This document shows positions 8,087 through 60,107 of a stretch of 64,000 bases of DNA, piece after piece (the first letter of the stretch is position 1; every line of letters starts with the position of its first letter). Where the stretch lies: positions 1 through 64,000 of the forward strand of contig JABIJM010000020.1 of assembly GCA_018655525.1 (NCBI GenBank), written 5' to 3'. Position numbers and translations under genes: made by a program. This DNA is from Candidatus Woesearchaeota archaeon. Lineage in GTDB: Archaea; Nanobdellota; Nanobdellia; Woesearchaeales; GW2011-AR9. Below the pieces are notes generated by a model. That model was given only the letters and a program-made list of their open reading frames with translations. It searched no databases and was not told the DNA's origin.

Positions 8087-8169
8087 AATCCCTCTCCTTT
8101 GAAGAGCTTTAAAAAACTTCTGAAAACTAATTCATAATATATATAATAAATTAGTTCTAAAATCAGTTT

Positions 8170-9205: not shown

Positions 9206-9215
9206 TTTAGTTTAC

Positions 9216-9314
9216 GTATTAAATTCAACTTCCAAGTTATCACGGCACGGCGCTTTAGGATTCGTTACACGAATACGCCTCAATTGGCGGTGATAACCCA
9301 GTTGAACCTAATAC
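9216..9314 (+). ncRNA. Structured RNA family, copy A
   Basis: P1 TTCAACT/AGTTGAA; P2 GTTATCAC/GTGATAAC; core GGCAC...TCAATTGGCG; P3 GGCG/CGCC; P4 ATTCGT/ACGAAT. Same architecture as 12548-12689 and 15056-15153. Confidence 0.7.
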
Positions 9315-9340
9315 TAATACAAAAGCTTATTAATTATAAA

Positions 9341-10027: not shown

Positions 10028-10042
10028 TTCTAAATCATACTC

Positions 10043-10101
10043 ATCCTCAGGCTACTTACATATATTCCATAATGGATTTACGTTGGGGCTCATCATAGGA
10101 T
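10043..10101 (-). ncRNA. Candidate C/D box sRNA
   Basis: Minus strand ATCCT-ATGATGA(C box)-...-CTGA(D box)-GGAT; terminal stem ATCCT/AGGAT; ~59 nt; internal C'/D' boxes degenerate. Confidence 0.5.
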
Positions 10102-10210
10102 CTTGAGAGACTAGAGCGGACTTATGTCCACGTGTTAATTAATTGATTAAAAAGAGTCTTCTTTTTTAATTGTTTGTGGTTATTTTTGGAAAGAAAGGTT
10201 TATTTTTTGT

Positions 10211-10444
10211 CTAATAACCATCATCTTTGGTAGCCTTATAACCAAATGCATCTTCTAAACTTTTATTTAAATCTTCTGAAGTCATAATATTTCCCTCAGC
10301 TAATGCATGAGAAACGTAGTCTGGCTTCCTACTTCCCCCCAACATTGTACTGATTATAGCCCCTTCTGCTATTTCCCTATTTCTTTTTTTTACTTCTGCG
10401 GGTGTTGGAGGTTTAGGGGGCATTGGTATTTCATCTATTGACAT
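10211..10444 (-). CDS. Hypothetical protein
   Basis: 77-aa ORF. Confidence 0.5.
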   Translation of the reverse strand: MSIDEIPMPPKPPTPAEVKKRNREIAEGAIISTMLGGSRKPDYVSHALAEGNIMTSEDLNKSLEDAFGYKATKDDGY

Positions 10445-10532
10445 GAAAGAGATAGAAGAAGGAAACTATTTAATCTTTACTGGTCTTCAAAATAAATTTA
10501 TGCCTATCTTTAAACATAAAAATAAGAAAGAG

Positions 10533-10642
10533 CGGACCTGGGAGGATTTGAACCCCCGGTCTATTCCTTGCTTCCCATAATTGAGTAGGAGGGAATCGCC
10601 TTTTCTGGTCAATAAATGATATCCAGACTGGGCCACAGGTCC
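10533..10642 (-). tRNA. tRNA-Arg(CCT) with two apparent introns (D-loop and 37/38)
   Basis: Acceptor GGACCTG/CAGGTCC, discriminator G; D stem GCC/GGC enclosing a ~30-nt D-loop with CTGG...CCAG hairpin; anticodon stem ATTCC/GGAAT, loop CTCCTA|intron|A; T arm GGGGG-TTCAAAT-CCTCC. Confidence 0.75.
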
Positions 10643-17783: not shown

Positions 17784-18467
17784 ATGAAAAAAATCATTAG
17801 TATATTACTCTCATTAGCACTTTCTGGATGTTATCCCGCAGGAATGTATTCATCCCATGAACCTCAAGAATGTAAGAATGTAAAATATGAAGAAGTCGTT
17901 CAAAACGCAAAGCATGCAAATTTTGGTTTGAAGTATCATATTACAACACTTGTTCCAGAAAATAATTTAGAAAAATGTACTTACCGATCTCCTGTCACAA
18001 AAGCAGTTATGATTAAAGATGGACTTGCTCGAAAGATTGAGATGATAGATGTAGGTGCTAAGGTTTCAAATTGGAAAAGGGATCATCATCCCGCTGGTAT
18101 AATTTATGATGATGAAATGGCCGCAGATTGTACATATAATCCTCATAGATATCGTGATTGGTTTTGTAAAGGCACCAATGGAAAAAATTACACCTTACCA
18201 AATAATAACAATAAAGTTACTGAAGGAGAACTAATTACGCTTGCAGTAAAAACAATTGATTGTTTGAAAGGTAAAGGAAGTAATGTAAAGATTGATTCAA
18301 ATGAAGATATAACAAGCTGTATACAAACACCAAAAGGCAAATTACCACGACATAATCCATTAATTCCATCTGATCCTGGATTTCGTAGAGGACAAGGTCA
18401 TTTCTATAAAAAGATGGATTATGGATTTTGTTATGATGCTCGTGTTCATTGTCGTTTTTCAAAATAG
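17784..18467 (+). CDS. Predicted lipoprotein, hypothetical
   Basis: MKKIISILLSLALSGCYPAG: signal peptide plus lipobox LSGC. Confidence 0.65.
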   Translation: MKKIISILLSLALSGCYPAGMYSSHEPQECKNVKYEEVVQNAKHANFGLKYHITTLVPENNLEKCTYRSPVTKAVMIKDGLARKIEMIDVGAKVSNWKRDHHPAGIIYDDEMAADCTYNPHRYRDWFCKGTNGKNYTLPNNNNKVTEGELITLAVKTIDCLKGKGSNVKIDSNEDITSCIQTPKGKLPRHNPLIPSDPGFRRGQGHFYKKMDYGFCYDARVHCRFSK

Positions 18468-18574
18468 TGATTATGGAATATACAGGTTTACCAAGAAACC
18501 ACTACAAATGGTTATTTCCACATGCTCAGGTATAACCCATAACTTTTATATAACCACTCTTATTCTAGTATAAA

Positions 18575-19915
18575 ATGGTCCTAGACAAGCTCGGAGATTC
18601 ATTAAAGAACACGTTAAATAAGATAACGAAATCAATGTTTGTAGATGAAAAGCTGATAAATGAGCTTGTGAAGGACATTCAACGTGCATTATTACAATCA
18701 GATACAAATGTTCAATTAGTATTCTCCTTAAGTAAAGCAATCAAAGAACGGGCTAAGGAAGATCCTCCTGCTGGTGTAACAAAACGTGAGCAGTTAGTGA
18801 AAGTTGTTTATGAAGAGTTAACAAATTTCTTAGGAAAGGAAGCGTATGAAATTAAAATTTCTAAAAAGCCTACGCAAATTATGTTGGTGGGATTATTTGG
18901 GTCTGGGAAAACAACAACTGCAGGGAAGTTAGCAAAGTATTACAAAAAACGTGGTTTAAAAATTGCAGTGATGCAAACGGATACATGGAGACCGGCAGCG
19001 TATGAACAGTTGCAACAAACTGCTGAAATGGTTGGTGTAGATTTTCTTGGAATAAAAGGAGAGAAGGATCCTGTCAATATTTATTTGTCATTTGAGAAAA
19101 AGTTAAATGATTATGATGTTGTAATTGTTGATACAGCAGGAAGAGATGCGTTATCAGAAGAATTAATTGAAGAATTGAATAAGTTACATGGGGCAGTACA
19201 AGCAGATGAGAAGTTGTTAGTTATTTCTGCAGATATTGGTCAAGCAGCACAGAAACAAGCACAGGCGTTTCATGATACATGCCATGTAACTGGTGTTGTA
19301 ATCACAAAATTAGAAGGAACTGCAAAAGGTGGTGGAGCATTATCAGCATGCGCAGTTACAGATGCAAAAATTGCATTTATTGGAGTTGGTGAAAAAGTTG
19401 ACGATTTAGAAGTATTCCATCCACAACGTTTTGTTGGACGTTTGTTAGGGATGGGTGACATTGAAACTTTATTAGAGAAAGCGAAAGAAGTCATCACTGA
19501 AGAATCTGCGAAAGATATGCAAGCAAAATTCATGAAAGGAAATTTCAATCTTGTTGACTTGTATGAACAAATGAAAGCCATGAAAAAAATGGGTTCATTT
19601 GGAAAAATTATGGAAATGATTCCTGGGATGGGTCAATTAAAGATGCCAAAAGATATGTTAAAAACTCAAGAAGGAAAGTTAGAGAAATGGAAATTCGCAA
19701 TGGATTCTATGACAAAGGAAGAGTTAGAAGAACCAGAAGTACTAGATGCTCAAAGAATTGATCGGATTGCATCTGGAAGCGGTTTGAAAATCCAAGAAAT
19801 AAGAGAATTATTAAAACAATATCGTCAAAGTAAGAAAATGATGAAGATGATGAAAGGTGAAGGCGATATTAATAAGATGATGAAGAAAATGAAGGGACGA
19901 GTTCCTGGTATGTAG
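18575..19915 (+). CDS. srp54: Signal recognition particle 54 kDa protein
   Basis: LVGLFGSGKTTTAGKLAKYYKKRGLKIAVMQTDTWRPAAYEQL...DTAGRD...TKLEGTAKGGGALSA...M-domain. Confidence 0.97.
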   Translation: MVLDKLGDSLKNTLNKITKSMFVDEKLINELVKDIQRALLQSDTNVQLVFSLSKAIKERAKEDPPAGVTKREQLVKVVYEELTNFLGKEAYEIKISKKPTQIMLVGLFGSGKTTTAGKLAKYYKKRGLKIAVMQTDTWRPAAYEQLQQTAEMVGVDFLGIKGEKDPVNIYLSFEKKLNDYDVVIVDTAGRDALSEELIEELNKLHGAVQADEKLLVISADIGQAAQKQAQAFHDTCHVTGVVITKLEGTAKGGGALSACAVTDAKIAFIGVGEKVDDLEVFHPQRFVGRLLGMGDIETLLEKAKEVITEESAKDMQAKFMKGNFNLVDLYEQMKAMKKMGSFGKIMEMIPGMGQLKMPKDMLKTQEGKLEKWKFAMDSMTKEELEEPEVLDAQRIDRIASGSGLKIQEIRELLKQYRQSKKMMKMMKGEGDINKMMKKMKGRVPGM

Positions 19916-20062
19916 TTAGTGTTTATGTAAGTCTTTTTCGGGTATGGGTTTTTCTTCTCTAAATCCACATTCTTTACAATATTTGATGGTATAATATCCA
20001 TCTGGGAACTTATGTTGACCTTCGTGTAATGTACGTTTGCAGTCTGGGCAGTGTGTTAGCAT
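19916..20062 (-). CDS. Small zinc-ribbon protein (48 aa)
   Basis: MLTHCPDCKRTLHEGQHKFPDGYYTIKYCKECGFREEKPIPEKDLHKH; CxxC...CxxC; not in the ORF track. Confidence 0.65.
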   Translation of the reverse strand: MLTHCPDCKRTLHEGQHKFPDGYYTIKYCKECGFREEKPIPEKDLHKH

Positions 20063-20133
20063 GTTCTTTAGTAAAATGATATAATATTTATAGGTTTAGG
20101 TATATTTATAAATTATGAGAGAATTCTTCTTAT

Positions 20134-21186
20134 GTGGCAGATACAATTGAGGGATTTCAGAATTTAATTGGAGAACTAAAAGAAAGCCTAAAATTTTTTG
20201 AAACTGAATCCGTAGATATGGAAACAAATTTACAAAAAATACCTGCTCTTGGAAAGTATTTAATTGAAGAAGAACATAGTGGAAGTACAATTAGAAAAAT
20301 CACAAAAGTTCTTAGAAATGTATATAGAATTGTTAAAAGAATCCAAAAAGCAAGAAAAGAATTTGAAAGTAGACTTGAAGATTTAAATATAAGTATAAAC
20401 AATTTTCTTCCAGGAAGATATAGAAAAAGGTTTGTTCAAAATTCTAAAAAAATGGAAATTATTTCTAATTTTATCCTAAAGTTTTATTCAAAAAGAGGAG
20501 CATTATGGAATAATAGAAAAGATGGAGGGTTATTGCTCACCAAATTAAAAAATTCACAAAGAGGAGGAATAAGACCGCTATTAGCTGTAATTGAATCTTA
20601 CAAAACCTTAATTCTTGATGTAGAAAAAGATTTAGAGAATATTCAATTTAATTTTAATATTGATAATGTTCTAAAAACTGTAGATGCACCAGTAGATCGA
20701 ACTGTAGTGATTATTGATGCGGATTTTGCATCCAATGCAGACCATTATAGAAAAATTAGAAGAAAAATAATTCGTTTAGTTAATAATGCAACATTAGAGA
20801 TCCCTAAAACTGTACTTAAAGAAATGATCAAAATTCCAAAAAATAGAAAAGCTGCTCTTGTCAGCAAAGATTTTCGTCGTCAATTACTTAAATCAGCAAA
20901 TCTTATTTCCATAAGAAAAAATTTAACTTATGAGGATACAATTATCAATTATTGGAAAAAAACACCAAAGGGAAGTTCAAATGAAAATAAAATCAGAGAA
21001 TTTAAAAGAGGAGGAGATATTAAAATCATGTTAAGAGCATTAGAATTAGATCCTATACCTGTTGTAATTCTTTCAAATGATAATGATATATATCAAACAA
21101 TTAGAGCCATGCAGAATGCCGGAATTGCAATACACATTTCAGTCCATGCATTTCAAGATGACGGGACAATTCTTAGAGTGGCATAA
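20134..21186 (+). CDS. Coiled-coil plus C-terminal PIN-like domain protein
   Basis: DRTVVIIDADFASNADHYRKI...EIPKTVLKEM...KRGGDIKIMLRALELDPIPVVILSNDNDIYQTI: PIN-like acidic pattern; GTG start. Confidence 0.55.
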   Translation: MADTIEGFQNLIGELKESLKFFETESVDMETNLQKIPALGKYLIEEEHSGSTIRKITKVLRNVYRIVKRIQKARKEFESRLEDLNISINNFLPGRYRKRFVQNSKKMEIISNFILKFYSKRGALWNNRKDGGLLLTKLKNSQRGGIRPLLAVIESYKTLILDVEKDLENIQFNFNIDNVLKTVDAPVDRTVVIIDADFASNADHYRKIRRKIIRLVNNATLEIPKTVLKEMIKIPKNRKAALVSKDFRRQLLKSANLISIRKNLTYEDTIINYWKKTPKGSSNENKIREFKRGGDIKIMLRALELDPIPVVILSNDNDIYQTIRAMQNAGIAIHISVHAFQDDGTILRVA

Positions 21187-21629
21187 TCTCCTTTAATAGA
21201 ATCAATTCTTTCTTTAAATGTTTGATATTTCTCACCTAAAACTTTTTCAAATTCTGCTAAAGAAGACCTGTGATAAGAAGCAGGAGTCATCATAAATTGA
21301 GAGTTATCTTCATCTTTATCAATTTGTATTAAATGATGATTTAGACTTGTTCTAACCATGACCATATTAACTTCGGAATCTTGACTCCATAAATAACGAG
21401 AAACTGCCCTTTCAAGAGGTCCACCCTTTTCATTTATTAAGGGAATAGAAGAATACATTAATTTATTGTTGTGTGGGTTTTTTTTTGACCCTACTGCAAC
21501 ATGAAATGGGCCTTCATTCATAAAGGCATTATTACGTGTGATAATATAATCTCCTTCTTTTACATCATTTAATTTTAATAGCTCATCAAATAAAATGATT
21601 CTTGAATCAATTGTAGTTGTTGTACCCAT
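21153..21629 (-). CDS. Hypothetical protein
   Basis: 158-aa ORF, overlaps the 3' end of the convergent neighbour. Confidence 0.55.
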   Translation of the reverse strand: MGTTTTIDSRIILFDELLKLNDVKEGDYIITRNNAFMNEGPFHVAVGSKKNPHNNKLMYSSIPLINEKGGPLERAVSRYLWSQDSEVNMVMVRTSLNHHLIQIDKDEDNSQFMMTPASYHRSSLAEFEKVLGEKYQTFKERIDSIKGDYATLRIVPSS

Positions 21630-21683
21630 ATCATCATTTTCAGAATATCTTTTATAAAGATTTCGTCTCTTTTGAGTAAATAA

Positions 21684-22283
21684 TCAAAACTCAATGATTT
21701 TTCCAGTCTTTCCAACATTGATAACTTTTGTTGATCCAATAAGTTCTTCTATACCGTGAGTTTCATGAATGTGACCACAAATGTGGACATCTGGTTTGAA
21801 TTCTTCAATTGCTTTTCTTACTCCGCTTGATCCCCAACCTGGAATTTTCATGGAGATAATTGAATCATTTGGTTGAACATGTGTAACCATAAGTTTCTTT
21901 TTACAGTCTTTAATTGAGTTGTGAGATTGTTTGAGTGTTTGAAAAAATTGTTCTTCATTTAAAGTGTGTAAACCTACATCTCCATAACCACACCCAAATA
22001 TGCCCACATCACCAAATTTTAGGCTGTATCCATGAAGATTTTTAACTTGATATGCATCAACCATTGCATTGATTTCAGCCATCCCTTCATGATTTCCTGG
22101 GACTACGGCAACTTCTAATCCCATTTTTTTGAATGGTCCAATCATACCTTCCTTGAATTGGTCTTCATCAAAGATATCACCTGCAAGAATTACAAGATCA
22201 ACTTTTTCATCTGCACCTTTTTGAGCCATTTTTTGCATAAAGTGGCGATCGTTATGTACGTCTGAGATTGCAAGTATTTTCAT
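21684..22283 (-). CDS. Metallophosphoesterase (calcineurin-like)
   Basis: MKILAISDVHNDR...LVILAGDIFDE...VVPGNHEGM...THVQP...ICGHIHE. Confidence 0.93.
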   Translation of the reverse strand: MKILAISDVHNDRHFMQKMAQKGADEKVDLVILAGDIFDEDQFKEGMIGPFKKMGLEVAVVPGNHEGMAEINAMVDAYQVKNLHGYSLKFGDVGIFGCGYGDVGLHTLNEEQFFQTLKQSHNSIKDCKKKLMVTHVQPNDSIISMKIPGWGSSGVRKAIEEFKPDVHICGHIHETHGIEELIGSTKVINVGKTGKIIEF

Positions 22284-22384
22284 GTGATGTTAAGGATAGG
22301 ATGACTTTATAAACTTTTTGGATTGGTTACTCCAGAGTAGTTATTTTAAAAAGATTTATAAAGGATCATAAAAATAACACTTAT

Positions 22385-22948
22385 ATGAAAATAAATAAAA
22401 TTATAGGATATGTAGTAGCTGGATTAGCAGCATTAACTATTTCAAGTTGCGAAAGGGAATATACCCCAGCAAATCCAGTAGTACATGGAAATGTTGTTAC
22501 CCATGAAGATTCAAATGGAGGAATCGCAATATATCAATTTCATACTCGGAGAGATGAAGAAATCAAAGGTGCGACATTTATTAAACAATTCAAAAATGAT
22601 CGTTTCGGTCAAAAAACTTTAGCAGGTCACTATCAAGATTTAAACAAGAACGGAAAAGTTGACGAGGGAGATTTTTGCTTTGTATCCCAAGGAGAAAATT
22701 GTCAAACACCTCTTGAAGATCGTTTTGTATGTTCTACACATATTCTTAGAACAGTTCATACAGATCATCCTATGAAATACGATGCATCAAACCAATCAGA
22801 AGGTCTTACCGAAGATGGGACATATAAAACGTATACCACAGCAGGAATGTGGCATTTGCGAAATGGAGTAAGAACGCCTCATCAATCTATTGAACAAGCA
22901 AAAGATTGTATTAAAGAATGTCCTTCTAATTTATTAGAAAAACTTTAA
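22385..22948 (+). CDS. Predicted lipoprotein with EF-hand-like loop
   Basis: VAGLAALTISSCEREY lipobox; DLNKNGKVDEGDF EF-hand loop. Confidence 0.6.
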   Translation: MKINKIIGYVVAGLAALTISSCEREYTPANPVVHGNVVTHEDSNGGIAIYQFHTRRDEEIKGATFIKQFKNDRFGQKTLAGHYQDLNKNGKVDEGDFCFVSQGENCQTPLEDRFVCSTHILRTVHTDHPMKYDASNQSEGLTEDGTYKTYTTAGMWHLRNGVRTPHQSIEQAKDCIKECPSNLLEKL

Positions 22949-22963
22949 ACTAATTTTAAAAAA

Positions 22964-24280
22964 ATGACATACAAAAATATAATTAAACATGCAATTGTAA
23001 GAACTGCAATTGGACTAACAGCCCTCTTAGGGGGATGTGATAAGGATAATGATATACCAGACGTACCTATTCCAACAATTCCTGCAGAACCTATAGAATC
23101 TCTTAAGGTTATTGGACCTATTCCTCCAAAAACATCTAAGAAATTACCAATTAAAGACAATTGTGAAGCATTAGATGTAATGATTATGTTTGATAACACT
23201 AGTTCAATGGGACCATATATTAATCAAGCTAAACAAAAAGGAATGGAAGCTCTAAACACCATACGTTCAACTTATCCAGATTCACGAATTGCAATTTCAA
23301 CAGTAGCCGATTTCGGGCATGGAGATATACCCTACGAATTAAAAACAGGATTTACCACAGACACTTCAATAGTTGGACAAGCAATTAATTCAATTAAGTT
23401 ATGTGGTGGTGGAGATGATCCTGAAGCATATTCTCATGCTATACAAAAGGCTTCAAAAGAAAAATGGAGACCAGACGCATATCGTCTTGTGATTCTTGTA
23501 GCAGATTCAGTTGCTCATGATAAAAATAAATTAAAGGCAAATGTTAAAAATTCAAATGAAACACTTGCCGTACTTACTGCAAATGAAGTGAATATCTCTT
23601 ATTGGAAAAGTGTAACACCATTTACTCTTCCTTTAGCATCTCATAAAAATTTAAATTCCTTATTATTACGTTCAATTATGATTTCATGTGGAGATTATCC
23701 AAAAATAGAATATGATACCGCTAAATGGGATCTAGATTCTGAAGATAAAAAAGAACTTGATGGGTTAGTAAAAATGCTTAAAAATAAAAAAAATATTGGC
23801 ATCCAAGTTGACGGCCATACAGATTCTGTAGGTGCAAATTTCAGAAATGATATCCTTGGAATTAGGAGAGCAAAAGGAGTCGCAGCATACCTGAATTCTA
23901 AAGGAATTAAAACTGCTGCTGCAAGTTATGGAGAAGTAAAACCTCTTTGTACTACTGAAACAGAAGATTGTAAACAACTTAATAGAAGGTCACATTTATA
24001 TCCAGTACTTCTATCACCAAAATCATCTAAATTTCCTTCAAAAATGGGAAACTTTTATTTAGCAAAAATTGATGGAGATACCGCAACATATTCATTCATT
24101 CCTACTTCTAGTAAACATTTTGGTTCTGTAATAGGGAATATGTTCAATAAAAAAGATCAAGCAAATGTATTCCATACTGTAGGACATCGTAATATTTCAT
24201 TAGATGCAGATGGAAATAACTCTGCTGGAGACCATATCCGTAAGTTTGAACCAGTATATTTGAAAGCTCGTTCAAATTAA
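22964..24280 (+). CDS. Predicted lipoprotein: vWA domain plus OmpA-like C-terminal domain
   Basis: LTALLGGCDKDN lipobox; VMIMFDNTSSMG MIDAS-like; IQVDGHTDSVGANFRNDILGIRRAKGVAAYLNSKGI...LNRR OmpA-like signature. Confidence 0.75.
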   Translation: MTYKNIIKHAIVRTAIGLTALLGGCDKDNDIPDVPIPTIPAEPIESLKVIGPIPPKTSKKLPIKDNCEALDVMIMFDNTSSMGPYINQAKQKGMEALNTIRSTYPDSRIAISTVADFGHGDIPYELKTGFTTDTSIVGQAINSIKLCGGGDDPEAYSHAIQKASKEKWRPDAYRLVILVADSVAHDKNKLKANVKNSNETLAVLTANEVNISYWKSVTPFTLPLASHKNLNSLLLRSIMISCGDYPKIEYDTAKWDLDSEDKKELDGLVKMLKNKKNIGIQVDGHTDSVGANFRNDILGIRRAKGVAAYLNSKGIKTAAASYGEVKPLCTTETEDCKQLNRRSHLYPVLLSPKSSKFPSKMGNFYLAKIDGDTATYSFIPTSSKHFGSVIGNMFNKKDQANVFHTVGHRNISLDADGNNSAGDHIRKFEPVYLKARSN

Positions 24281-24292
24281 TTTTAGTAAAAT

Positions 24293-25210
24293 TTACCGAT
24301 TCATAAATCCAAGAAATTTCAAAGGATTTACCACTCTTCCTTTGTAATAAATATGTAAATGTAAATGAGGGTTTGTTTTGTAAGGATTTGCTGTTAATCC
24401 TGATAATCCTAATTTGGTATTGTAATTTACTTGTTGTCCTACTTTGACATTAACTCTGCTCATATGTAAATAGAGATGTACATAATCTCCAGATTTAACC
24501 TTCACTGCTTTTCCATTCCATTTCATCCACCAGCCAGTTTTAATTACAACTCCAGGAAGAATGGGATATAAAGGCGTACCAACTTTTGCATAAAAATCAT
24601 GACCTTTGTGCCTTCTACTACCTCTATTAGCACCATACAAATCAAACCGACAAGTATAATGTTGACCATTTTTCTGACTATAATTTTGTGGACTTTCTTG
24701 AGAACACCTATGAAGAACAGGTAATTTTTTTCCACCAAATGGACTTTGAAAACCTTTATTCTTGAAATTAGTAGTATTTGTTTTTTTCTTATTATCTACA
24801 ACTTTTGTAATTTTACGTTTTAGAATTACTTTAGGAATCATAATTTTCTGTCCATTCCTTACTAAAGATGGTTTTTTTAAACCATTAAATTTTGCAAGTT
24901 TTTGATAAGCTTCATTAATATCAGTTACACCATAAAACCTCAAAAGTGTTGAGATATCACAATAATGTTGTACTATTGCACCAAGATTTCGTCTGTGGGA
25001 TTCACTTGATTTTACAATTACAATTATAACATCTTCATTTTTTGCAAGTAATTCAAAGGGAAAACTTGCCAAAGTAGCACTCAATCCAGAAAGACCAACT
25101 AATTTAAGAAATCCTCTTCGACTCAGTTCTTTCGTAGCATCTACATCTGGAAGTTCAGATCCATGATATTTACCTCTTGGAAGGAACTTTTTTAGAAACT
25201 CAAAAACCAT
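24293..25210 (-). CDS. Tat-exported LysM-like plus M23-family metallopeptidase
   Basis: SRRGFLKLVGLSGLSATLAS Tat signal; SLVRNGQKIMIPK LysM-like; RRHKGHDFYAKVGTPLYPILPGVV...TNPHLHLHIY M23 motifs. Confidence 0.82.
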   Translation of the reverse strand: MVFEFLKKFLPRGKYHGSELPDVDATKELSRRGFLKLVGLSGLSATLASFPFELLAKNEDVIIVIVKSSESHRRNLGAIVQHYCDISTLLRFYGVTDINEAYQKLAKFNGLKKPSLVRNGQKIMIPKVILKRKITKVVDNKKKTNTTNFKNKGFQSPFGGKKLPVLHRCSQESPQNYSQKNGQHYTCRFDLYGANRGSRRHKGHDFYAKVGTPLYPILPGVVIKTGWWMKWNGKAVKVKSGDYVHLYLHMSRVNVKVGQQVNYNTKLGLSGLTANPYKTNPHLHLHIYYKGRVVNPLKFLGFMNR

Positions 25211-25308
25211 ATATTGATTACCTCGGTTCCACTTATAATTGTTTGTTGTCCCTTTGGAGTGAATAAAAAAGAAAGATTTATAAAGGATGAAAGGTATAAA
25301 ACAATAAA

Positions 25309-26742
25309 ATGTTAGAAAAATTGGTGAGTGATGAACGACATGAAAGTTTAGCTAGATATCACCCTTCTTCAGAAGAAGTATTTACAAATAATGACAGTTT
25401 TGATTATATAAAAAATGAAGTTCTAAATAGTGATAATCAAAAAGGTTGGAAAAAGGCTGGATTAAAAGGATTAAATGGAGCAGCTCATGCAACATATGGA
25501 TTACTTGAAGGAGTTTCACGTGTAACTGAAAGTGGGTTACGATTAGCAGGAAAAGCAGTTGAATATCTTGGAAGAAATGCAGATGATAAACTCCAAGCAA
25601 TTCAAACAGATCAATATGATGATGAGATCAATTGGCCAAAATCAATTTCACAAAATATTAGAAGTTTATATGGAAGTTTAAAAGAGGGTTTTCTTAGCGT
25701 AACTTCAACAAAAGTAAGAAACAATTTAATGGTAGGATTAGCATTGGGGATTGGACTTTATAGTGGATCTAAAATGTTACCAAATATTGAATTTTCAGGA
25801 GATGAAGATAAAATTGCAGTAGTAACTCCAGAATCATCTTTGCCTAAAACTCCAAAACCATATCCTCTTAGCCCATCTTCACCTCATAAACCTGACCCAT
25901 ATAGTACAAGTCACGGTGTTATCAGTGTAGATGAACTTGTAAAAACTTATGGAAAAGATGACGTTAGATTTGCACAAGAGACAATTAAAAGAGGAGCAAA
26001 ATTAAGAGAGCAAAACAAAACTCGTTGTCAAAGTCCTAAAGACATTTCTAATAAATGTAAAACTTTACGAGGATTACAAGCAAAATATCCAGGAAATTAT
26101 ACTGCTCATTTATTTGGTTTTTTTGATGATAACAGAGAGGTTGCAAACATCACGATGTTACGGGATGCTTACCAAAATGTAATGAAAGAAGCAAATAAAA
26201 AAGGCGTAGAATTACCATTTCATTTCGTTGCTTCAACATTAGCAAAAGAAGGTCATAGCTTAGATGTTGATAATTATAAAAGTAGCAGTACTAATGGATT
26301 TGCACAGTATGGGTTAGATACATTCGGAGATAATTATCAAACTTCAAAGAGTTTACGAACATTATTACCTAAGGGTTTTAATAAGAAATTTACGGCCCAT
26401 GCAGCAACCAATGAACTCGGTCAAGTAGTAAAAACAGCAAATTTCAATTCAAAATCTGATGCATTTCATGCATTTGTTGCAGAATTAGCATGGCGACAAA
26501 TGAACTTTACAAAAAAAGCAAAGTGTGATAGTATGCCTGAAGATCAGAAGCTGTTCTTAACTTATGAATTATACAACTGTGGACAAAATTCACTTAATAA
26601 AAAATTAAGAGCAAAGAATACGTGTAAAACTTTAGAAAAACATTTCAAAGATAAATCATTAAATAAATGTCAAGGAAATGCGCATGTTGCATTAAAAAGC
26701 GCATTATGGTTAGATCAAATGAAAGCGTTTCCAGAATCTTAA
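25309..26742 (+). CDS. Membrane-anchored lysozyme/transglycosylase-like protein
   Basis: TM segment NNLMVGLALGIGLYSG; C-terminal HFVASTLAKEGHSLDVDNYKSSSTNGFAQYGLDTFG resembles a lysozyme-fold catalytic Glu region. Confidence 0.5.
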   Translation: MLEKLVSDERHESLARYHPSSEEVFTNNDSFDYIKNEVLNSDNQKGWKKAGLKGLNGAAHATYGLLEGVSRVTESGLRLAGKAVEYLGRNADDKLQAIQTDQYDDEINWPKSISQNIRSLYGSLKEGFLSVTSTKVRNNLMVGLALGIGLYSGSKMLPNIEFSGDEDKIAVVTPESSLPKTPKPYPLSPSSPHKPDPYSTSHGVISVDELVKTYGKDDVRFAQETIKRGAKLREQNKTRCQSPKDISNKCKTLRGLQAKYPGNYTAHLFGFFDDNREVANITMLRDAYQNVMKEANKKGVELPFHFVASTLAKEGHSLDVDNYKSSSTNGFAQYGLDTFGDNYQTSKSLRTLLPKGFNKKFTAHAATNELGQVVKTANFNSKSDAFHAFVAELAWRQMNFTKKAKCDSMPEDQKLFLTYELYNCGQNSLNKKLRAKNTCKTLEKHFKDKSLNKCQGNAHVALKSALWLDQMKAFPES

Positions 26743-27299
26743 CGTCCTTTCAGCTTCAAATCAAGCACTAAATCTTCTAATTTTCTAAGATCATACTTCA
26801 CAGAATCTACTTTACGCCTGATATCATTATTTCTGAAGTCAAATTTAAGTAATTCTCCATAAATTGCGTCTACTTCGTTTTTAATCTTCTTGACAGCTTC
26901 TACTTTGCCTTTTCCAGCTAAATAGACGGCTTTTCGTACAAGTTCACCAGGAAGGTCTGCTAAACCTAGAACGTAGTGTTCTGGGTGTACATTAAGCTCA
27001 ATAAGCTTCCCTTTCTTGACAAAATTGTAGTATAAGACTCCTTCTGCATATTCTTGGATTGCGACTTTATAACTGCCTTCAAATGCTAGTTTTGCGTTCT
27101 TTTTAGCTATCTGGTTAAGTTTCTTCTTTTCTTGTTCTATTTGTTTAAGAAGCTTAGAAGCTTGAGGCAGATCGTCTCTATGAACTGCATATATGAGTAA
27201 TTTGCTTAATTTAAGGACAACTCTGCCTTGTTTGATCAAAAGTTCTCTATCTGAGTCATATTTTTTGAATTCTTGCTGTAATTTTGTGAAATTTACCAT
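26739..27299 (-). CDS. Translin-family (haxtranslin-like) protein
   Basis: SRELLIKQGRVVLKLSKLLIYAVHR...LAFEGSYKVAIQEYAEGVLYYNFV...LGLADLPGELVRKAV. Confidence 0.8.
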   Translation of the reverse strand: MVNFTKLQQEFKKYDSDRELLIKQGRVVLKLSKLLIYAVHRDDLPQASKLLKQIEQEKKKLNQIAKKNAKLAFEGSYKVAIQEYAEGVLYYNFVKKGKLIELNVHPEHYVLGLADLPGELVRKAVYLAGKGKVEAVKKIKNEVDAIYGELLKFDFRNNDIRRKVDSVKYDLRKLEDLVLDLKLKGR

Positions 27300-27413
27300 A
27301 GATCTATAATATTGGAGTTTCTTTATATAATTAACTTAAATTTTGTCTATATTCCTATTTAACCACAACCTTTATAAAACAAGTCTCTTCTCACAACTAT
27401 ATTAATTGAGGTA

Positions 27414-27647
27414 ATGTTAAAAATGGAACAATCACGACCGTTAGATATGCTTAACCGAGCACGGAATAATACCGTTCTCGTAGATTTAAAAAATGGCTTA
27501 CGATACGTAGGTAAATTACAAGCGTTTGATATTCACATCAATGTCGTTCTTGAAGAAGCAGAAGAACATAAAGATGGCGAACTAAAAAGAAAGTTAGGAA
27601 ATGTATTTATTAGAGGAGATACAATCATAACAATTTCTCCAGCTTAA
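27414..27647 (+). CDS. Sm-like (Lsm) RNA-binding protein
   Basis: RPLDMLNRARNNTVLVDLKNGLRYVGKLQAFDIHINVVLEEAEE...GNVFIRGDTIITI. Confidence 0.95.
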   Translation: MLKMEQSRPLDMLNRARNNTVLVDLKNGLRYVGKLQAFDIHINVVLEEAEEHKDGELKRKLGNVFIRGDTIITISPA

Positions 27648-27658
27648 GGTAAAATAAA

Positions 27659-27826
27659 ATGGTAAAAGGAACAGCAAGTATGGGTAAAAGAAGTGGGAAG
27701 AAAACTCACATCCCGTGTAAACGATGTGGCGGTTTCTCTTATCACGTTCAAAAGAAGAAATGTGCTTCTTGCGGATTTGGTGCAACTAAAACCAAACGTA
27801 AGTATGGCTGGAACAAGAAAAAGTGA
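27659..27826 (+). CDS. rpl37e: 50S ribosomal protein L37e
   Basis: [55 protein letters not shown]; below the ORF-track cutoff. Confidence 0.93.
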
Positions 27827-28006
27827 ACTCACTTTTTCTGGTCAGAAAATTCTTAATTTTCTTGAACAAGAAAAATACAAAGTAATTCTTTTTTATTATT
27901 AATTATAATCTGATATTATTTTTAGGTTGAATTTTTTATAGTTTTTTAGTAGTATTTTTTCTATTCGGTCAAAAAACGAAGATTAGTTTATCCAATAAAA
28001 AAGAAA

Positions 28007-28537
28007 TTAATGAATTATAATAACTAGGCCTTCGAGTTCACGTAGCTGTCCAAATCCACTGCCATCTAAGTTTAAATCTCCTTTTGCAGTTGTGTAATGT
28101 CCAACTAATTTTTTAAGTAATCTTTCCTCAGCAACTTTAAGACTATTTCCACTCACTAAAATTTGATTTTTATCAAAGGAACGATCAGTATTATAATTAA
28201 AACGAAGAAAATGTTCATTTCCCCTTTGTGCATATTCTACACCAAAACTTCCAAATACATACTCACCACTAACACCATCTTTAATAACATGAGGTTCTCT
28301 TTCAAAGCCTTTATAATTTTTAGTTTCAATAAAACCATCTCCAATAAATCTCATCCTATCAGGTGATTTCCTAGATACATTATCATTATCTCGTGCTCTT
28401 AATTTAGAATATTCTCCTTCTACTTCCCTTTCTCCTGAAAGACGTCCTTTAAATGATGAATGTAAAAATATAGCCCTATAAAGTTCAACTGTTCTTGCAT
28501 TACTTGGCCTTACACCACTAATTGGTTGTGTTGTCAT
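28007..28537 (-). CDS. Hypothetical protein
   Basis: 176-aa ORF. Confidence 0.5.
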   Translation of the reverse strand: MTTQPISGVRPSNARTVELYRAIFLHSSFKGRLSGEREVEGEYSKLRARDNDNVSRKSPDRMRFIGDGFIETKNYKGFEREPHVIKDGVSGEYVFGSFGVEYAQRGNEHFLRFNYNTDRSFDKNQILVSGNSLKVAEERLLKKLVGHYTTAKGDLNLDGSGFGQLRELEGLVIIIH

Positions 28538-28628
28538 ATAATTTATTGAAGGGTTGAAATATATAAATCTTCTTGAGGTTTATTAAAAAAAAAAAAACGA
28601 TTTAGAAAAATATTAATAAATAAAAAAA

Positions 28629-29297
28629 TCACTCAGTAATCTTTTCTCTGCACGTGATTCTAAGTTGATTAAAGGTTACTTGATCACATATTTTAAGGTC
28701 ATCCTTCAGTTTTGCAACTTTTGCAATACACACCTCTGAGTTTAACTGGTTACTAATTTTCTTACATACTTCAACATCTTCAGTTGCTTGCGCAATCTTG
28801 TTGAGACAAATCCCTTGATCTGGGTTGTTAAGTATTAAACATAAACCAGCCTTATTTGTTTTTAAGGCCACGTCCATGTAACATTCCATGTACTGGATGT
28901 CATTAAAGATTTCACCACAAAATCCACCTTTCTCTTCCTCTAATGCAAATTTATTATAACAATTATCATGCCAATACACATTTTCTATTTCTTCACATAA
29001 ATTTGGATCATTTTTAGCTATAGCAATTTCTGATTCACAAAATCCTTGTGTTGTTTTATCTTTTACAAGTTTACACGCTTCAAGATTTTCACTTTTCTTT
29101 GCAAGATCTGTAACACAAGTATCTCTGACAACATCACTTTTTATTTTACTACAAGTTCCTGCGTCTAGATAACAATCATCCCTATGTGCACCTTCTAAAG
29201 CAGAACATGGATCATTTGGATCTACTGGTTCTTTGAATAATGTACATCCTGCAAAAAGGAGTGTTAATGTTAATAATAATATGATCAAATATTTCAT
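28629..29297 (-). CDS. Predicted lipoprotein with Cys-rich helical repeats
   Basis: LLLTLTLLFAGCTLFKEP lipobox; repeated C-x-xI/V...DxC periodicity. Confidence 0.65.
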   Translation of the reverse strand: MKYLIILLLTLTLLFAGCTLFKEPVDPNDPCSALEGAHRDDCYLDAGTCSKIKSDVVRDTCVTDLAKKSENLEACKLVKDKTTQGFCESEIAIAKNDPNLCEEIENVYWHDNCYNKFALEEEKGGFCGEIFNDIQYMECYMDVALKTNKAGLCLILNNPDQGICLNKIAQATEDVEVCKKISNQLNSEVCIAKVAKLKDDLKICDQVTFNQLRITCREKITE

Positions 29298-29355
29298 TTT
29301 ATGTGTTTTTAGTGAAATCTGCTTTTAAGTTTTGTGGAAGTGTAGGAATATATAG

Positions 29356-29392
29356 CACACCCCACTAGACAAGTACGCATAGAGCTTATAAA
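29356..29392 (+). promoter_or_regulatory. Conserved leader/promoter block upstream of LAGLIDADG ORF (copy 2)
   Basis: cacaccccactagacaagtacgcatagagcttataaa; see 4352-4388. Confidence 0.6.
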
Positions 29393-29413
29393 TAAAGAAA
29401 ATCTGAGAGAATT

Positions 29414-30103
29414 ATGAACCTAGGTAAAATTAATAAAATTCCCTTAAATAATATCACTGCATATTTAGCTGGTGTAATTATTGGAGATGGAAATGTCTCC
29501 AATGCATCAAAATCTAAAAAAGATAAATCAAAAGATTATAGAATTACAATTGAAGTTACTGATCTTAATTTCTTAATCAATGTTGAAAAATTAATTAAAT
29601 CAATTATAAAAACAAAAAGTACAGTAACAAAAAGATCAAAAATTAAAGAAAAAAGGAAACAATTATATTATTTTCAATTTAGAAATAAAAGTTTTTATTA
29701 CTTTCTTACAAAAGATTTGGAGATTCCAGCTGGAAAAAAGTCAAATATTGTTTTTGTTCCTAATAAAATATTAAAATCTAATGGATTATATCCTTTTTTT
29801 CTTGCTGGGGTATTTGATACAGATGGAGGAATTAGAGGAAAGACTCCTGGATTTACTTCAGCAAGTAAAAAATTAATTGATGGATTAAGTTTTATTCTAA
29901 ATGAACTTAAAATCACCCATTATTTAGATTCATGGGTTAATAAGAGATATAATCAAAGATATTATGGAATTAAGATATCGGTAAAAGATACCGACAAGTT
30001 TTTAAATGGGTTACCATCATGTAACAAAGAGAAACTTGACAAAGTTCTTGTCCATGTGGACGTGCCGGAGCGGTCAAACGGGCTGGAAGGTCTTCCGATA
30101 TAG
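29414..30103 (+). CDS. LAGLIDADG homing endonuclease overlapping tRNA-Leu exon 1
   Basis: ITAYLAGVIIGDGNVS and FFLAGVFDTDGGIRG; stop TAG at 30101-30103 lies within the tRNA intron. Confidence 0.85.
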   Translation: MNLGKINKIPLNNITAYLAGVIIGDGNVSNASKSKKDKSKDYRITIEVTDLNFLINVEKLIKSIIKTKSTVTKRSKIKEKRKQLYYFQFRNKSFYYFLTKDLEIPAGKKSNIVFVPNKILKSNGLYPFFLAGVFDTDGGIRGKTPGFTSASKKLIDGLSFILNELKITHYLDSWVNKRYNQRYYGIKISVKDTDKFLNGLPSCNKEKLDKVLVHVDVPERSNGLEGLPI

Positions 30104-30169
30104 GAAACCTGGCTGAGCTTAGGACCCAGTGGCTTAGTGCCTACGCAGGTTCAAACCCTGCCGTTCACA
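30056..30169 (+). tRNA. tRNA-Leu(TAG) with noncanonical intron 5' of the anticodon loop
   Basis: Acceptor GTGGACG/CGTTCAC, discriminator A, long variable arm GGC-TTAGT-GCC, T arm GCAGG-TTCAAAC-CCTGC; CTGG|~30 nt|GCTTAGGACCCAG gives anticodon arm CTGGG-CTTAGGA-CCCAG. Confidence 0.78.
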
Positions 30170-30176
30170 TCTTTTT

Positions 30177-31748
30177 TTATACACTCTTAAACAATTTCAC
30201 AACTCTTTCTTTTCCAATCTCTAAGATGAATGACGCCAATCGTGGTCCTTGATCTTTATTGATTAAGACATTATACGCTATCTTAAAGAAATCTTTAATT
30301 GGGAATTCTGAGTTTTTACATAAGATATACATCTCTTCATGTAACTCTTTATCTGTCCATTCTTTTTCACCTAGTTTTTTAGCTAATTGATGAAGAATTT
30401 CTTTTTCTTCTTTTCCAAGAGTCACTTGCGAGGTTTTTTGTATAGTAAATGTAAATTCATCTGGAGCATATTTTTTAACCCAATTGGTTGCACATTCTGC
30501 ACGTTTTCTAATACGTTTTTTATCATGCTCATTCTTAAGCTCTTTTTCAAAATATCCAATGACTTTATCTATATCAAATTCATAAATTTGTAAAAGTGTT
30601 GTTAGATGTCTAAAACTTGGTTGGTAAGGAATAGTCTTTGGAATTTTTCCAATATAACTTAATTCATATGCAACCGACATTTTGATTGTATCTTTTTCAT
30701 TGACTTTATGTTCACCATAATACACACGCTCCACTTTATCAAATTCTTCATAGATTGCAATAACATCTACATCAAATGAGATTGCAAATTCTCTATTTGG
30801 ACGAGTTCCTGCAAATAAGTATCGTGTTACTTCTGGTTCATAAATTTCAAGAACGTCTGTTAATGTTGTTACGTTTCCTGAAGAGGAAGACATTTTTCCT
30901 CCACCACCTTTAATACGAATAAAATCGTACATAACATAGGTTGGTGCTTCAAAACCATAAACTTCTTTGCAAATTTGTTTTCCTGTATCAAAACTTCCAC
31001 CCTTTGTAGAATGGTCTTTTCCACCTGGCTCAAAATCTACATTTTCATACATCCAACGCATTGGCCAATCTATTCGCCATTTTAATTTGACATTTCCATC
31101 TTTGCGAATATCTACTGTTTCGGTTGTACCGTCAGTTAATTTGTAGGAAACACCCCATTTACCGTCCCAGGTTAATTCTGTAACATCGTCAGTTCCTAAT
31201 TTTTTAGAGAATACTGCAATAGGCAACCAATCATCTGCTAAAGGGTTTTCTCTATATTGATCAATAATTTTTTTGATTTCTTTTGTATGTTCTAATGCTA
31301 TTTTGATCTCTTTAGCATATGTACCTTTCCGATACATTTTATGTTGATAAATATATTCTGGATTAATTCCAACACGTTTTACAGATTCTTCTACTGCAAC
31401 TTGGTTATGCTGTGCATAACTTTCATGTGAATCATAAGGGTCTGGTACATCTACAATTGCTTTTCGTAATTGTGCTTTAAGTTCTTCTTGTTTTGGCATG
31501 CCTTTTGGAACTTTTCTAAATACGTCATAATCATCCCAGGAATAAATAAATCGGACTTTTTTGCCTTTTTTTTCAAGAGCACGTTTCACTAAATCTACAG
31601 TTATAATTTCTCTAAAATTTCCAATGTGTACAACACCGGAAGGTGTTATTCCTGAAGCAACAGTATATGTTTCTTTATCTCCTTTTTGTCGGATGATGTT
31701 ATCTGCTGCGACATCTGTCCAATGATATGATTTTTGTTCTTTTGCCAT
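30177..31748 (-). CDS. lysS: Lysyl-tRNA synthetase, class I
   Basis: ASGITPSGVVHIGNFREIITVDLV HIGH region; KMSSSSGN KMSKS region. Confidence 0.95.
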   Translation of the reverse strand: MAKEQKSYHWTDVAADNIIRQKGDKETYTVASGITPSGVVHIGNFREIITVDLVKRALEKKGKKVRFIYSWDDYDVFRKVPKGMPKQEELKAQLRKAIVDVPDPYDSHESYAQHNQVAVEESVKRVGINPEYIYQHKMYRKGTYAKEIKIALEHTKEIKKIIDQYRENPLADDWLPIAVFSKKLGTDDVTELTWDGKWGVSYKLTDGTTETVDIRKDGNVKLKWRIDWPMRWMYENVDFEPGGKDHSTKGGSFDTGKQICKEVYGFEAPTYVMYDFIRIKGGGGKMSSSSGNVTTLTDVLEIYEPEVTRYLFAGTRPNREFAISFDVDVIAIYEEFDKVERVYYGEHKVNEKDTIKMSVAYELSYIGKIPKTIPYQPSFRHLTTLLQIYEFDIDKVIGYFEKELKNEHDKKRIRKRAECATNWVKKYAPDEFTFTIQKTSQVTLGKEEKEILHQLAKKLGEKEWTDKELHEEMYILCKNSEFPIKDFFKIAYNVLINKDQGPRLASFILEIGKERVVKLFKSV

Positions 31749-34823: not shown

Positions 34824-35400
34824 GCGTGTTCACCCCATTAAAATATTTGTAAATTGGTTGTTGTTCTTTAACTTCCAATTCATTGTTTGCACGTCTTGCA
34901 AGAACAAATAGTAAATCACTTAATCGGTTCACATAGCAAAGCACAGAAGGATTTACAAGATGATCATTACTTGCTTTTACTAAGACACGTTCTGTTCTTC
35001 GTGTAATAGAACAGCATAAATGTAAAAAAGAACTTGCAATAGTACCTCCAGGTAAAATGAAAGAAGTTTGAGGTGCAAGAACTTCCGCAATGTGATCAAT
35101 GTGTTCTTCTAAATCTTTAATATGTTGTTGTTGGATTTTTGGAAGGTTATAATCGGGCATATGGGAACTTGCCATATCAGAACCAACAGTAAAAAGATCG
35201 TTTTGAATTTTAGAGAGTAGTTCACGTAACTTTTCATTCTCAATAAAACATAATGTTACACCAATCACAGAATTCAATTCGTCTATAGAACCAAGTACTT
35301 CTATACGAAAATCATCTTTAGAGACTCTTGTTCCTCCATAAAAAGAGGTTTTTCCTTGATCACCTGTTTTTGTATATATTTTCATCTTAATATCCTTCAC
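34816..35400 (-). CDS. ATP:cob(I)alamin adenosyltransferase (PduO type)
   Basis: IYTKTGDQGKTSFYGGTRVSKDDFRIEVLGSIDELNSVIG...CSITRRTERVLV...NRLSDLLFVLAR. Confidence 0.93.
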   Translation of the reverse strand: MKDIKMKIYTKTGDQGKTSFYGGTRVSKDDFRIEVLGSIDELNSVIGVTLCFIENEKLRELLSKIQNDLFTVGSDMASSHMPDYNLPKIQQQHIKDLEEHIDHIAEVLAPQTSFILPGGTIASSFLHLCCSITRRTERVLVKASNDHLVNPSVLCYVNRLSDLLFVLARRANNELEVKEQQPIYKYFNGVNTHE

Positions 35401-37453
35401 CTATGTTAATAACTTGATCTTCATAACTTCCATCCCTATAAATGGTGATACCTTTACATTTAGATTTCCATGCAAGAAGGTATGCTTCTTCAACATCTTT
35501 AATGGATGTTGTTCTTGGGAAGTTGATTGTTTTTGAGATGGAATTATCTACATTTTTTTGTAAGGTTGATTGCATTTTAATGTGCCATTCAGGTGCAATG
35601 TCCTGTGCTGTCACAAAAATGTCCCTTACATCTTTTGGAATTTCTTTAAATCCTTGAATACTTCCTGCTTTTGCAATTTTTCTGATTAATTCTGGTGTAT
35701 AAAATCCTCGTTCTCTTGAAACACGTTCAAAGGTTTTATCTAAATAAATTATTTCTGAATCTCCCAACACCGTTTTTTGATAAGAGATTGCAAATAGTGG
35801 TTCACAACCAGGAGAAGCATCAGCCATGATACTAATTGTTCCTGTTGGTGCCAAGGAATTACAAGTAATATTTCGCATTTTTCGTCCTGCTTTTTGATGA
35901 TCAGACCCATGCCATGCGGAACATACACCACGTTGTTCAGCAAGTTTAGAGGACATTTCGTAGGTTGTAGTTTTAATAAAACTCATCAATTTTTCTGCAA
36001 ATTCTAAACCTTTATCTGAATCATATTTTAAACCTAATTTTATTAAACAATCTGCAAACCCCATCATTCCCAAACCAAATTTTCTAGAACGTTTTGTTCG
36101 TTCTTCAATAATTTTAAGAGGATAACTATTCATATCTATGACATTATCCAAAAAGTGAACTGCAGTTTTGATTGTTTCATAAAGATCATCCCACAATATA
36201 TCCTTTTTTTCTTGATCTACAAATTTGTTTAAGTTTAATGATCCAAGTACAACACCTTCATATGGAAGAAGTGGCGCTTCACCACATTGATTTGTTGTTT
36301 CAATTTCTCCAAGATGTGCTGCTGGATGTTTTCTATTAATTTCGTCAATAAAAATTAATCCTGGATCACCTGTTTTCCATGCATTCTGTGTGATCATAGA
36401 AAAAACATCTCGTGCTCGGAGTTTACCATGATTTTTTCCGGTTTTAGGATCTGCAATCATATAGTCCCTATCAGCTTCAACTGATTTCATAAATCTATCA
36501 GTTACTCCTACAGAAATGTTGAAGTTTTTAAGAGATCGTTTATCACGTTTTGATTCTATGAAACGAATGATATCTGGATGATCAACACGAAGGACTGCCA
36601 TGTTTGCACCTGGCCGGATTCCTCCCTGTATGATTGCACCGAATGCTTTATCAAAAACCTTCATAAATGCAATGGGACCAGCTGCAACACCTTGTCTTCT
36701 ACCAACAGAATCCATTCTTGAACGTAAACGTGAGAATGAAAAGCCAGTTCCTGCACCACGTTGATGAATCAAAGCCGCATCTTTAAGGGTTCCAAAAATT
36801 CCCTCCATCGTATCATTAATTGGAAGAACAAAACAAGAAGAAAGTTGTTGTGTTTTTGTCCCTGCATTTTTTAAAGTGGGAGAATTAGGCATGAATTTTA
36901 ATTCAGACATTACTTCAAAAAACCTTTTTTGGTAATCTTTAATTTCTGTTTCTGTTGCATTATAATGTTTATCAGCTTGTGCAACATTTTTCGCAACACG
37001 TTGTAACATCTGCTGCGGCGTTTCAATTAAACTACCAAATTCATCTTTTTGAAGATATCTTCTCTCTAAAATTCTTAATGCTTGATGTGAAAAATTTAAA
37101 CTTTCTTGAGATTCTTCTGTTCCAAGAATTAATGCTGACGTTTTTCTTTGCTCATCTTTTTTATGTCTGTGAAGAATATATGCTTTTGCGATTTTAACAT
37201 GCCCACGCTCTATAAGAACTTCTTCTACCAAATCTTGAACTACTTCAGCAGAAGGGACACCTTCTTTATGGCGTGCTTTGAGGTAGGTAAGGACATCATT
37301 TGCTAATGCCAAAGATAAAGAACGATCTGCTTGATTTACGGTAAGAGAAGCCTTAAATATTGCATCTGCAATCTTGACAAGATCAAATTTAACAACTTTT
37401 CCACTACGTTTTTTTATATCTTTAAGTTCTGTAATTTTCTGTGAGTCTTGCAT
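35387..37453 (-). CDS. Ribonucleotide reductase, adenosylcobalamin-dependent (class II), ATP-cone type
   Basis: KRSGKVVKFDLVKIADAIFKA ATP cone; FMPNSPTLKNAGTKTQQLSSCFVLPIND; NQCGEAPLLPYEG; CNSLAPTGTISIMADASPGCEP. Confidence 0.92.
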   Translation of the reverse strand: MQDSQKITELKDIKKRSGKVVKFDLVKIADAIFKASLTVNQADRSLSLALANDVLTYLKARHKEGVPSAEVVQDLVEEVLIERGHVKIAKAYILHRHKKDEQRKTSALILGTEESQESLNFSHQALRILERRYLQKDEFGSLIETPQQMLQRVAKNVAQADKHYNATETEIKDYQKRFFEVMSELKFMPNSPTLKNAGTKTQQLSSCFVLPINDTMEGIFGTLKDAALIHQRGAGTGFSFSRLRSRMDSVGRRQGVAAGPIAFMKVFDKAFGAIIQGGIRPGANMAVLRVDHPDIIRFIESKRDKRSLKNFNISVGVTDRFMKSVEADRDYMIADPKTGKNHGKLRARDVFSMITQNAWKTGDPGLIFIDEINRKHPAAHLGEIETTNQCGEAPLLPYEGVVLGSLNLNKFVDQEKKDILWDDLYETIKTAVHFLDNVIDMNSYPLKIIEERTKRSRKFGLGMMGFADCLIKLGLKYDSDKGLEFAEKLMSFIKTTTYEMSSKLAEQRGVCSAWHGSDHQKAGRKMRNITCNSLAPTGTISIMADASPGCEPLFAISYQKTVLGDSEIIYLDKTFERVSRERGFYTPELIRKIAKAGSIQGFKEIPKDVRDIFVTAQDIAPEWHIKMQSTLQKNVDNSISKTINFPRTTSIKDVEEAYLLAWKSKCKGITIYRDGSYEDQVINIGEGY

Positions 37454-59982: not shown

Positions 59983-59991
59983 AAAAAAGAA

Positions 59992-60107
59992 CCTAGTTGG
60001 GTTGCTTGTATATTGGGTATTCCTCACCGGCCGTGTGCAAACTTAGTTGCTGGTCGTTAAAGACAATGTGGTCACAGGGACCTAAGCTATACCAACTAGG
60101 CAGTTTT
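59992..60107 (+). ncRNA. Candidate structured RNA enclosed by a 9-bp perfect helix and followed by poly-T
   Basis: CCTAGTTGG...CCAACTAGG then cagTTTTTT; inner hairpin CGGCC-gtgt-GCAAAC-tta-GTTGC-t-GGTCG. Confidence 0.45.

Follow-up and report, generated by a model that had tools for sequence, protein, structure and literature searches.

Domains encoded at the locus

In the window, the whole stretch of 64,000 nucleotides of contig JABIJM010000020.1 that was analysed, four neighbouring open reading frames (ORFs) were identified for putative surface proteins, among them proteins with murein-directed domains (Table 1). These are a small lipoprotein with an EF-hand-like loop, a lipoprotein with von Willebrand factor A (vWA) and OmpA-like domains, an M23 metallo-endopeptidase and an anchored protein with a lysozyme-like domain. 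An earlier sequence-only reading of this DNA had named the same four neighbours, with coordinates that proved exact. The genome, taken to be that of a woesearchaeal DPANN archaeon, is 0.96 Mb in size and 93.6% complete. A Pfam search found the M23 and OmpA domains to occur once each within it and, as their genes lie 12 bp apart, this adjacency is more than would be expected by chance.

Table 1. Features of the locus, with positions in the window
Feature	Positions	Strand	Description
Upstream region of EF-loop lipoprotein gene	22306..22376	+	72 bp, 76% identical to the anchor-gene promoter region of congener G002 (blastn E 3e-7)
EF-loop lipoprotein	22385..22948	+	Small lipoprotein, lipobox TISSC, one EF-hand-like calcium loop DLNKNGKVDEGD at residue 85 (motif read); G002 ortholog 80% identical
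vWA-OmpA lipoprotein	22964..24280	+	Lipobox LLGGC, vWA and OmpA-like domains; 15 bp after EF-loop gene, same strand
M23 metallo-endopeptidase	24293..25210	-	Twin-arginine hydrophobic segment ~30-50, degenerate LysM-like stretch ~100-126, M23 residues 200-298 (profiles and motifs)
Divergent intergenic region, M23 and lysozyme-like genes	25211..25308	.	Archaeal TATA-like TTTATAAA upstream of lysozyme-like gene
Anchored lysozyme-like protein	25309..26742	+	~135-residue N-terminal part, putative transmembrane segment, Pro-rich linker, ~270-residue C-terminal lysozyme/lytic-transglycosylase-like domain (comparison, profile, model)

The M23 domain of the minus-strand gene product was matched by PF01551 with an E-value of 7.1e-22 (77.9 bits, against a curated cut-off of 28.7), and the metal-binding and catalytic residues H201-x3-D205, H249 and H282-L-H284 were found to be present. 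The same HxxxD/HxH pattern was seen in 36 of the 41 archaeal M23 loci examined, and the closest solved structures were those of ShyA and lysostaphin. Possible loss of active-site residues was looked at for the M23 and OmpA domains, and the key residues of both were kept, so that the endopeptidase assignment of the earlier reading stands. The LysM-like stretch that it had placed in the same protein fell below the Pfam threshold (E=0.21), although M23 proteins from two further genera show the pattern again. The twin-arginine segment SRRGFLKL, over which profile TIGR01409 scored above its cut-off, was found to be kept in three genera. At full length, the M23 protein was identified in this genome only, among 61 searched.

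For the vWA-OmpA lipoprotein, the vWA domain (residues ~71-196) was matched by VWA_4 of Pfam (2.8e-8) and holds the metal ion-dependent adhesion site motifs DNTSS and GGGDDPEA. The OmpA-like domain (residues ~248-345) was matched by PF00691 (E=3.1e-13, 50.3 bits against a cut-off of 27.2), and the protein was also matched by the Pal profile (3e-17). The motif HTDSVG...NDILGIRRA retains the Asp and Arg ligand positions, which in solved Pal/OmpA structures contact diaminopimelate. These profiles and residues confirm the domain composition proposed in the earlier reading. For the gene upstream, the lipobox was likewise confirmed but the EF-hand was not, the 12-residue loop being single and unpaired, with no significant match to the EF-hand/dockerin family (dockerin E=0.19).

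A lipoprotein of another genome (G061, L126:6170-7171) was observed to carry an OmpA-like domain (library match) followed by a vWA-like domain (by eye), the reverse of the order in the window; the two proteins possibly arose by separate fusions. Genome G035 is 6% contaminated, and its bacterial-looking OmpA locus (L125) was left out of account as a possible contaminant.

The C-terminal domain of the anchored protein was without a sequence match in Pfam, NCBIfam or PDB. Homologues were identified in eight of 359 genomes of the order, and no relatives were found in viral contigs, phages or plasmids, leading to the rejection of a phage or plasmid origin. Some of these homologues bear a lipobox or a signal-peptide-like N-terminus and, with the lipoboxes of the two lipoproteins, these are the signs of surface targeting at the locus. 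Across seven divergent sequences, Glu107-Gly108 and Thr211-Tyr212...Asn216-x-Gly218 (TYxxxNxG) were invariant. Profile alignment against MltC, MltE, Slt and MltD of E. coli gave a local score of 29.8, compared to at most 16.8 for column shuffles (n=100) and 11.5 for a reversed control, and global alignment placed the invariant Glu at the region of the MltC catalytic Glu, with TYxxYNxG on AYNxG. A first structure model, with a predicted local distance difference test (pLDDT) score of 64.7, gave mixed fold matches with MltC top by probability. For a second model (AlphaFold, trimmed to 211 residues, mean pLDDT 69, predicted template modelling score 0.75), the fold matches with a probability of at least 0.3 among those listed were all to enzymes that cut murein glycan, namely MltE, MltC, FlgJ and endolysins (template modelling scores 0.22-0.47). 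The profile, invariant residues and moderate model together point weakly to a lysozyme/lytic-transglycosylase fold; a fold of the lysozyme superfamily is considered likely, and GH23-type chemistry possible. The transmembrane candidate is one weakly hydrophobic stretch near residues 138-158, which lies under the hydropathy threshold; a membrane anchor is plausible by comparison with homologues. The description of this protein as lysozyme-like gained indirect support, and its description as transmembrane-anchored is plausible; neither a family match nor a segment above threshold was obtained.

Archaeal setting and exchange of genes in a sister species

The domains in question are typically bacterial, and a bacterial contig or chimera in an archaeal bin was therefore considered. 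The contig also carries SRP54 and a class I-type lysyl-tRNA synthetase (LysRS), both recognized by eye, and translin (library match). The surroundings of the locus are collinear on both sides with those in the congener G002 at 71-91% DNA identity, and its guanine-cytosine content is unremarkable and agrees with that of the window. Collinearity on both sides refutes contamination, which we regard as extremely improbable, and the archaeal setting assumed by the sequence-only reading is upheld by these neighbours. A scan for sigma-70 promoters found fewer sites than in shuffled sequence.

No Mur ligase was detected in the genome, and at most two were found in any of the 51 genomes of the family. 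As a murein made by this archaeon itself is accordingly unlikely, a foreign substrate is the best reading. An alternative target would be the envelope of the archaeon itself, whether murein-like or made of another polymer, or its division septum, with the proteins acting in the manner of bacterial M23 proteins of the EnvC/NlpD/DipM type and of Pal. Members of the M23 and OmpA/Pal families do play such roles in bacteria, and a housekeeping role would also make M23 common in the order, as is found. Against this stand the Mur ligase result, the lack of M23 and OmpA matches in G002 (a genome 80% complete) and the replacement of enzyme cargo between congeners described below, which would be odd for housekeeping genes. 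We consider such a role unlikely.

In G002, the slot is bounded by orthologues of the metallophosphoesterase (90% protein identity) and the EF-loop lipoprotein (80%) on one side and of translin (85%) on the other. Between them, in the same strand order, lie genes for a secreted-looking caspase-like protein, a minus-strand YkuD L,D-transpeptidase and an anchor protein with another caspase-like domain, the caspase-like assignments being made by eye from a His...Cys pattern without a library match. The YkuD domain (PF03734, 3e-14) has intact His-Gly and Gly-Cys motifs, and the N-terminal part of the anchor protein is 63% identical over 172 residues to that of the anchored protein of the window. 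YkuD was therefore found in place of M23, and a caspase-like domain in place of the lysozyme-like domain, with the anchor retained. The slot, the anchor and a minus-strand, putatively murein-directed enzyme are constant while the identity of the cargo varies. Synteny in relatives, which the earlier reading had put forward as a check, showed the four genes not to be a conserved unit, as the sister species holds a different set in the slot.

The upstream region of the EF-loop gene that resembles the G002 anchor-gene promoter region (Table 1) holds a palindrome, TTACT-N4-AGTAG, with the joint form TTACY-N4-AGTAR in the two species. This palindrome was spotted post hoc and is weak by itself; the shared stretch hints at co-regulation.

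A second YkuD L,D-transpeptidase lipoprotein of the archaeon is encoded on another contig (G000:C23, L123:7075-7863), near a ribosomal-protein cluster, and is conserved in congener G001 (L124). It lies beside a large secreted-looking caspase-like (His...Cys) protein (7853-10603), a pairing seen again in the G002 slot.

The stretch from SRP54 to LysRS (17784-31748) was observed to be hypervariable, with conserved core genes interspersed among genes wholly different between congeners. Variable genes include those at 17784-18467 (a lipoprotein), 20134-21186, 21153-21629 and 28007-28537. Other genera of the family (L048, L049) retain a Cys-rich repeat lipoprotein of the window (28629-29297, minus strand) close to translin and LysRS, where it also adjoins the lysozyme-like gene. 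An ORF that looks by eye like a LAGLIDADG homing endonuclease (29414-30103, plus strand) was not found at the corresponding place in G002.

Distribution and possible function

M23 domains were found in 159 of the 359 genomes of the order (44%), 144 of them over cut-off, while YkuD was found in 66 and OmpA in 25. M23, YkuD, the lysozyme-like domain or a combination of them is present in 38 of the 51 genomes of the family. In one genome (G022) a GH3 glycosidase, YkuD and M23 lie within about 5 kb, and in another (G030) an M23 protein adjoins a beta-lactamase-family protein. The murein-directed theme recurs among relatives, whereas a fixed operon does not. The frequency of M23 weakens the surprise that the earlier reading expressed at a murein-directed M23 enzyme in an archaeon, though the domains and their intact residues hold up. 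The M23 domain was found to be about 36-37% identical to archaeal relatives of the same family, and equally so to its best matches in a bacterial plasmid collection. Equal distances and the unremarkable local base composition fit an old transfer and give no sign of a recent one, so that horizontal acquisition, if meant as recent, is not supported.

The best explanation of the locus, which we hold with moderate confidence and which relies on homology, is that it encodes a strain-variable set of surface proteins for binding and cutting the wall of a bacterium that the archaeon touches. The vWA-OmpA lipoprotein, seated on the archaeal membrane, would hold the murein of a touching bacterium, with diaminopimelate gripped by its OmpA domain and protein partners by its vWA domain. 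Murein cross-links would be cleaved by the membrane-held M23 endopeptidase and glycan strands by the anchored lysozyme-like domain, the local opening of the wall leading to uptake, attachment or killing. Sister species would retain the flanks and the membrane anchor and exchange the enzyme cargo, as may be expected if hosts or prey change in the course of an arms race. The proposal of weapons or a cell-contact system against bacteria, made in the earlier reading, keeps its foundations, namely an archaeal setting and murein-directed domains with intact residues; from these we infer the use against bacteria, and the idea itself had already been published.

Several results weigh against this explanation. 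Co-occurrence of OmpA, M23, YkuD and the lysozyme-like domain over the 359 genomes was not above expectation; together with the narrow distribution of the full-length M23 protein (one of 61 genomes) and of the lysozyme-like domain, this led to the rejection of a conserved four-gene system. The fold search with the second model gave no significant E-value for any lysozyme-type match. M23 domains are also able to cut peptides other than those of murein, and LysM is able to bind chitin. Finally, TatC was not detected in any of the 51 family genomes, by a search that recovered it from 11 of 14 control genomes, including three archaea, and the export of the M23 protein is thereby left without explanation. 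The twin-arginine segment is for this reason no evidence for export by the twin-arginine translocation (Tat) system, and the description of the protein as Tat-exported was not borne out beyond the presence of the motif. The segment may serve as a signal anchor, or a very divergent TatC may have been missed.

Twin-arginine-like segments were also observed in exported-looking proteins at L021:7264-9036, L022:6231-7997, L045:2173-3063 and L047:2391-3254, and may reflect a divergent Tat system or a repurposed signal anchor; the absence of a detected TatC concerns those that belong to this family.

The same domains would be required if the anchored enzymes digested murein debris as food, or repelled competing or predatory bacteria, with no specific host involved. 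In other genomes, glycosidases of the NAGPA and GH3 types lie close to related genes, which agrees, as does the patchy distribution, with such scavenging or defence. Anchoring and an OmpA grip are, however, better suited to contact than to dissolved debris, and we regard this alternative as possible but rather doubtful. Membership of a known defence system was rejected, as the matches obtained, to ZorB/MotB through the OmpA domain, were weak.

Patchy distribution and chance-level co-occurrence are also what would be seen if the genes were passengers, that is, laterally acquired bacterial domains kept by drift with no selected function; the twin-arginine segment kept without a detectable TatC would fit as well. 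Yet the frames have stayed open and the key residues have been kept although identity to bacterial relatives is low, useless genes should tend to be lost from a genome below one megabase, and the replacement in the sister species is another murein-directed enzyme. This makes passengers very unlikely.

Returning to the binding and cutting of a bacterial wall, a more specific proposal can be advanced tentatively, namely that the fixed slot in this DPANN genus is an exchangeable arsenal, with a conserved anchor and flanking lipoprotein, varied cargo matched to the wall of the host and a shared promoter box. Its cargo sets, similarly speculative, might be M23 with the lysozyme-like and vWA-OmpA proteins, or an L,D-transpeptidase with caspase-like proteins (murein- or protein-cutting). 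If true, the slot would be an archaeal equivalent of polymorphic toxin loci that is directed at bacteria, with its products kept on the surface instead of being released.

Elsewhere in the window, a 1498-residue ORF without a Pfam match (37502-41998, minus strand) was observed between two ribonucleotide reductase genes (35387-37453 and 42078-45272, minus strand); an ATP cone is present in one of these and a class II B12-dependent N-terminal domain in the other. A UvrD-type helicase was found to carry RQC and HRDC domains in the same protein (57856-60027, minus strand), an unusual combination.

Comparison with known systems

The locus bears on the question of whether the hosts of some DPANN archaea are bacteria instead of archaea. 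Large murein-transglycosylase-like proteins have been described in Woesearchaeota and Pacearchaeota, with bacterial hosts suggested (Castelle 2021, PMC8204110), and vampiristic Woesearchaeota with GH23 enzymes have been proposed (Vigneron 2022, PMC9723730). Modular peptidoglycan hydrolases have been reported from nearly 5% of archaeal genomes, prominently in Nanoarchaeota (Strock 2025, PMC12352652). The same study reported that enzymes of archaea kill bacteria, which sets an experimental precedent from a different archaeon. The locus fits such proposals of archaea living on or attacking bacteria, without being proof of them.

In common with the hydrolases of Strock 2025, such as the halophile M23 'Woldo', the window enzyme is an archaeal M23 with an intact active site in an organism without murein. 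It differs in having no recognized cell-wall-binding domain over threshold, the LysM-like stretch being the nearest, and would for this reason probably be missed by the modular criterion of that study; it is also predicted to be membrane-associated, and its gene neighbours those of an OmpA lipoprotein and a lysozyme-like protein. The transglycosylase-like proteins of Woesearchaeota and Pacearchaeota (PMC8204110; PMC9723730, GH23) share lineage, proposed target and lifestyle with the locus. The published proteins have recognized murein-transglycosylase/GH23 domains, one family occurring in proteins of up to 3,000 residues, whereas the lysozyme-like domain of the window was recognized by no library tried, is only ~270 residues long and appears to be held by a swappable anchor or by lipid.

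Pal/OmpA-like murein-binding lipoproteins resemble the window protein in their lipobox and in an OmpA domain with the Asp and Arg ligand positions. The window protein differs in its fusion to a vWA domain, occurs in an archaeon without a known outer membrane and scored far under the equivalog cut-offs for Pal and YiaD. LysM-M23 endopeptidases and amidase activators (ShyA, MepM, NlpD, EnvC, ActS) likewise have a LysM-like stretch followed by M23, but the window enzyme scored under all of their equivalog cut-offs, has a twin-arginine segment and keeps its metal-binding and catalytic residues. Activators of the EnvC/NlpD type have lost these M23 residues.

The genome shows no sign of murein synthesis, and its compact set of proteins predicted to be anchored in the membrane and to bind or cut murein offers direct targets for assay; their specificity could indicate the host. 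The locus supplies a congener pair in which cargo has been exchanged on one anchor. Peptidoglycan-cutting enzymes of Woesearchaeota and bacterial hosts or prey for this lineage had already been published (Castelle 2021; Vigneron 2022; Strock 2025), and what is new compared to these reports is the swappable anchored cassette, the vWA-OmpA lipoprotein and the unannotated lysozyme-like family.

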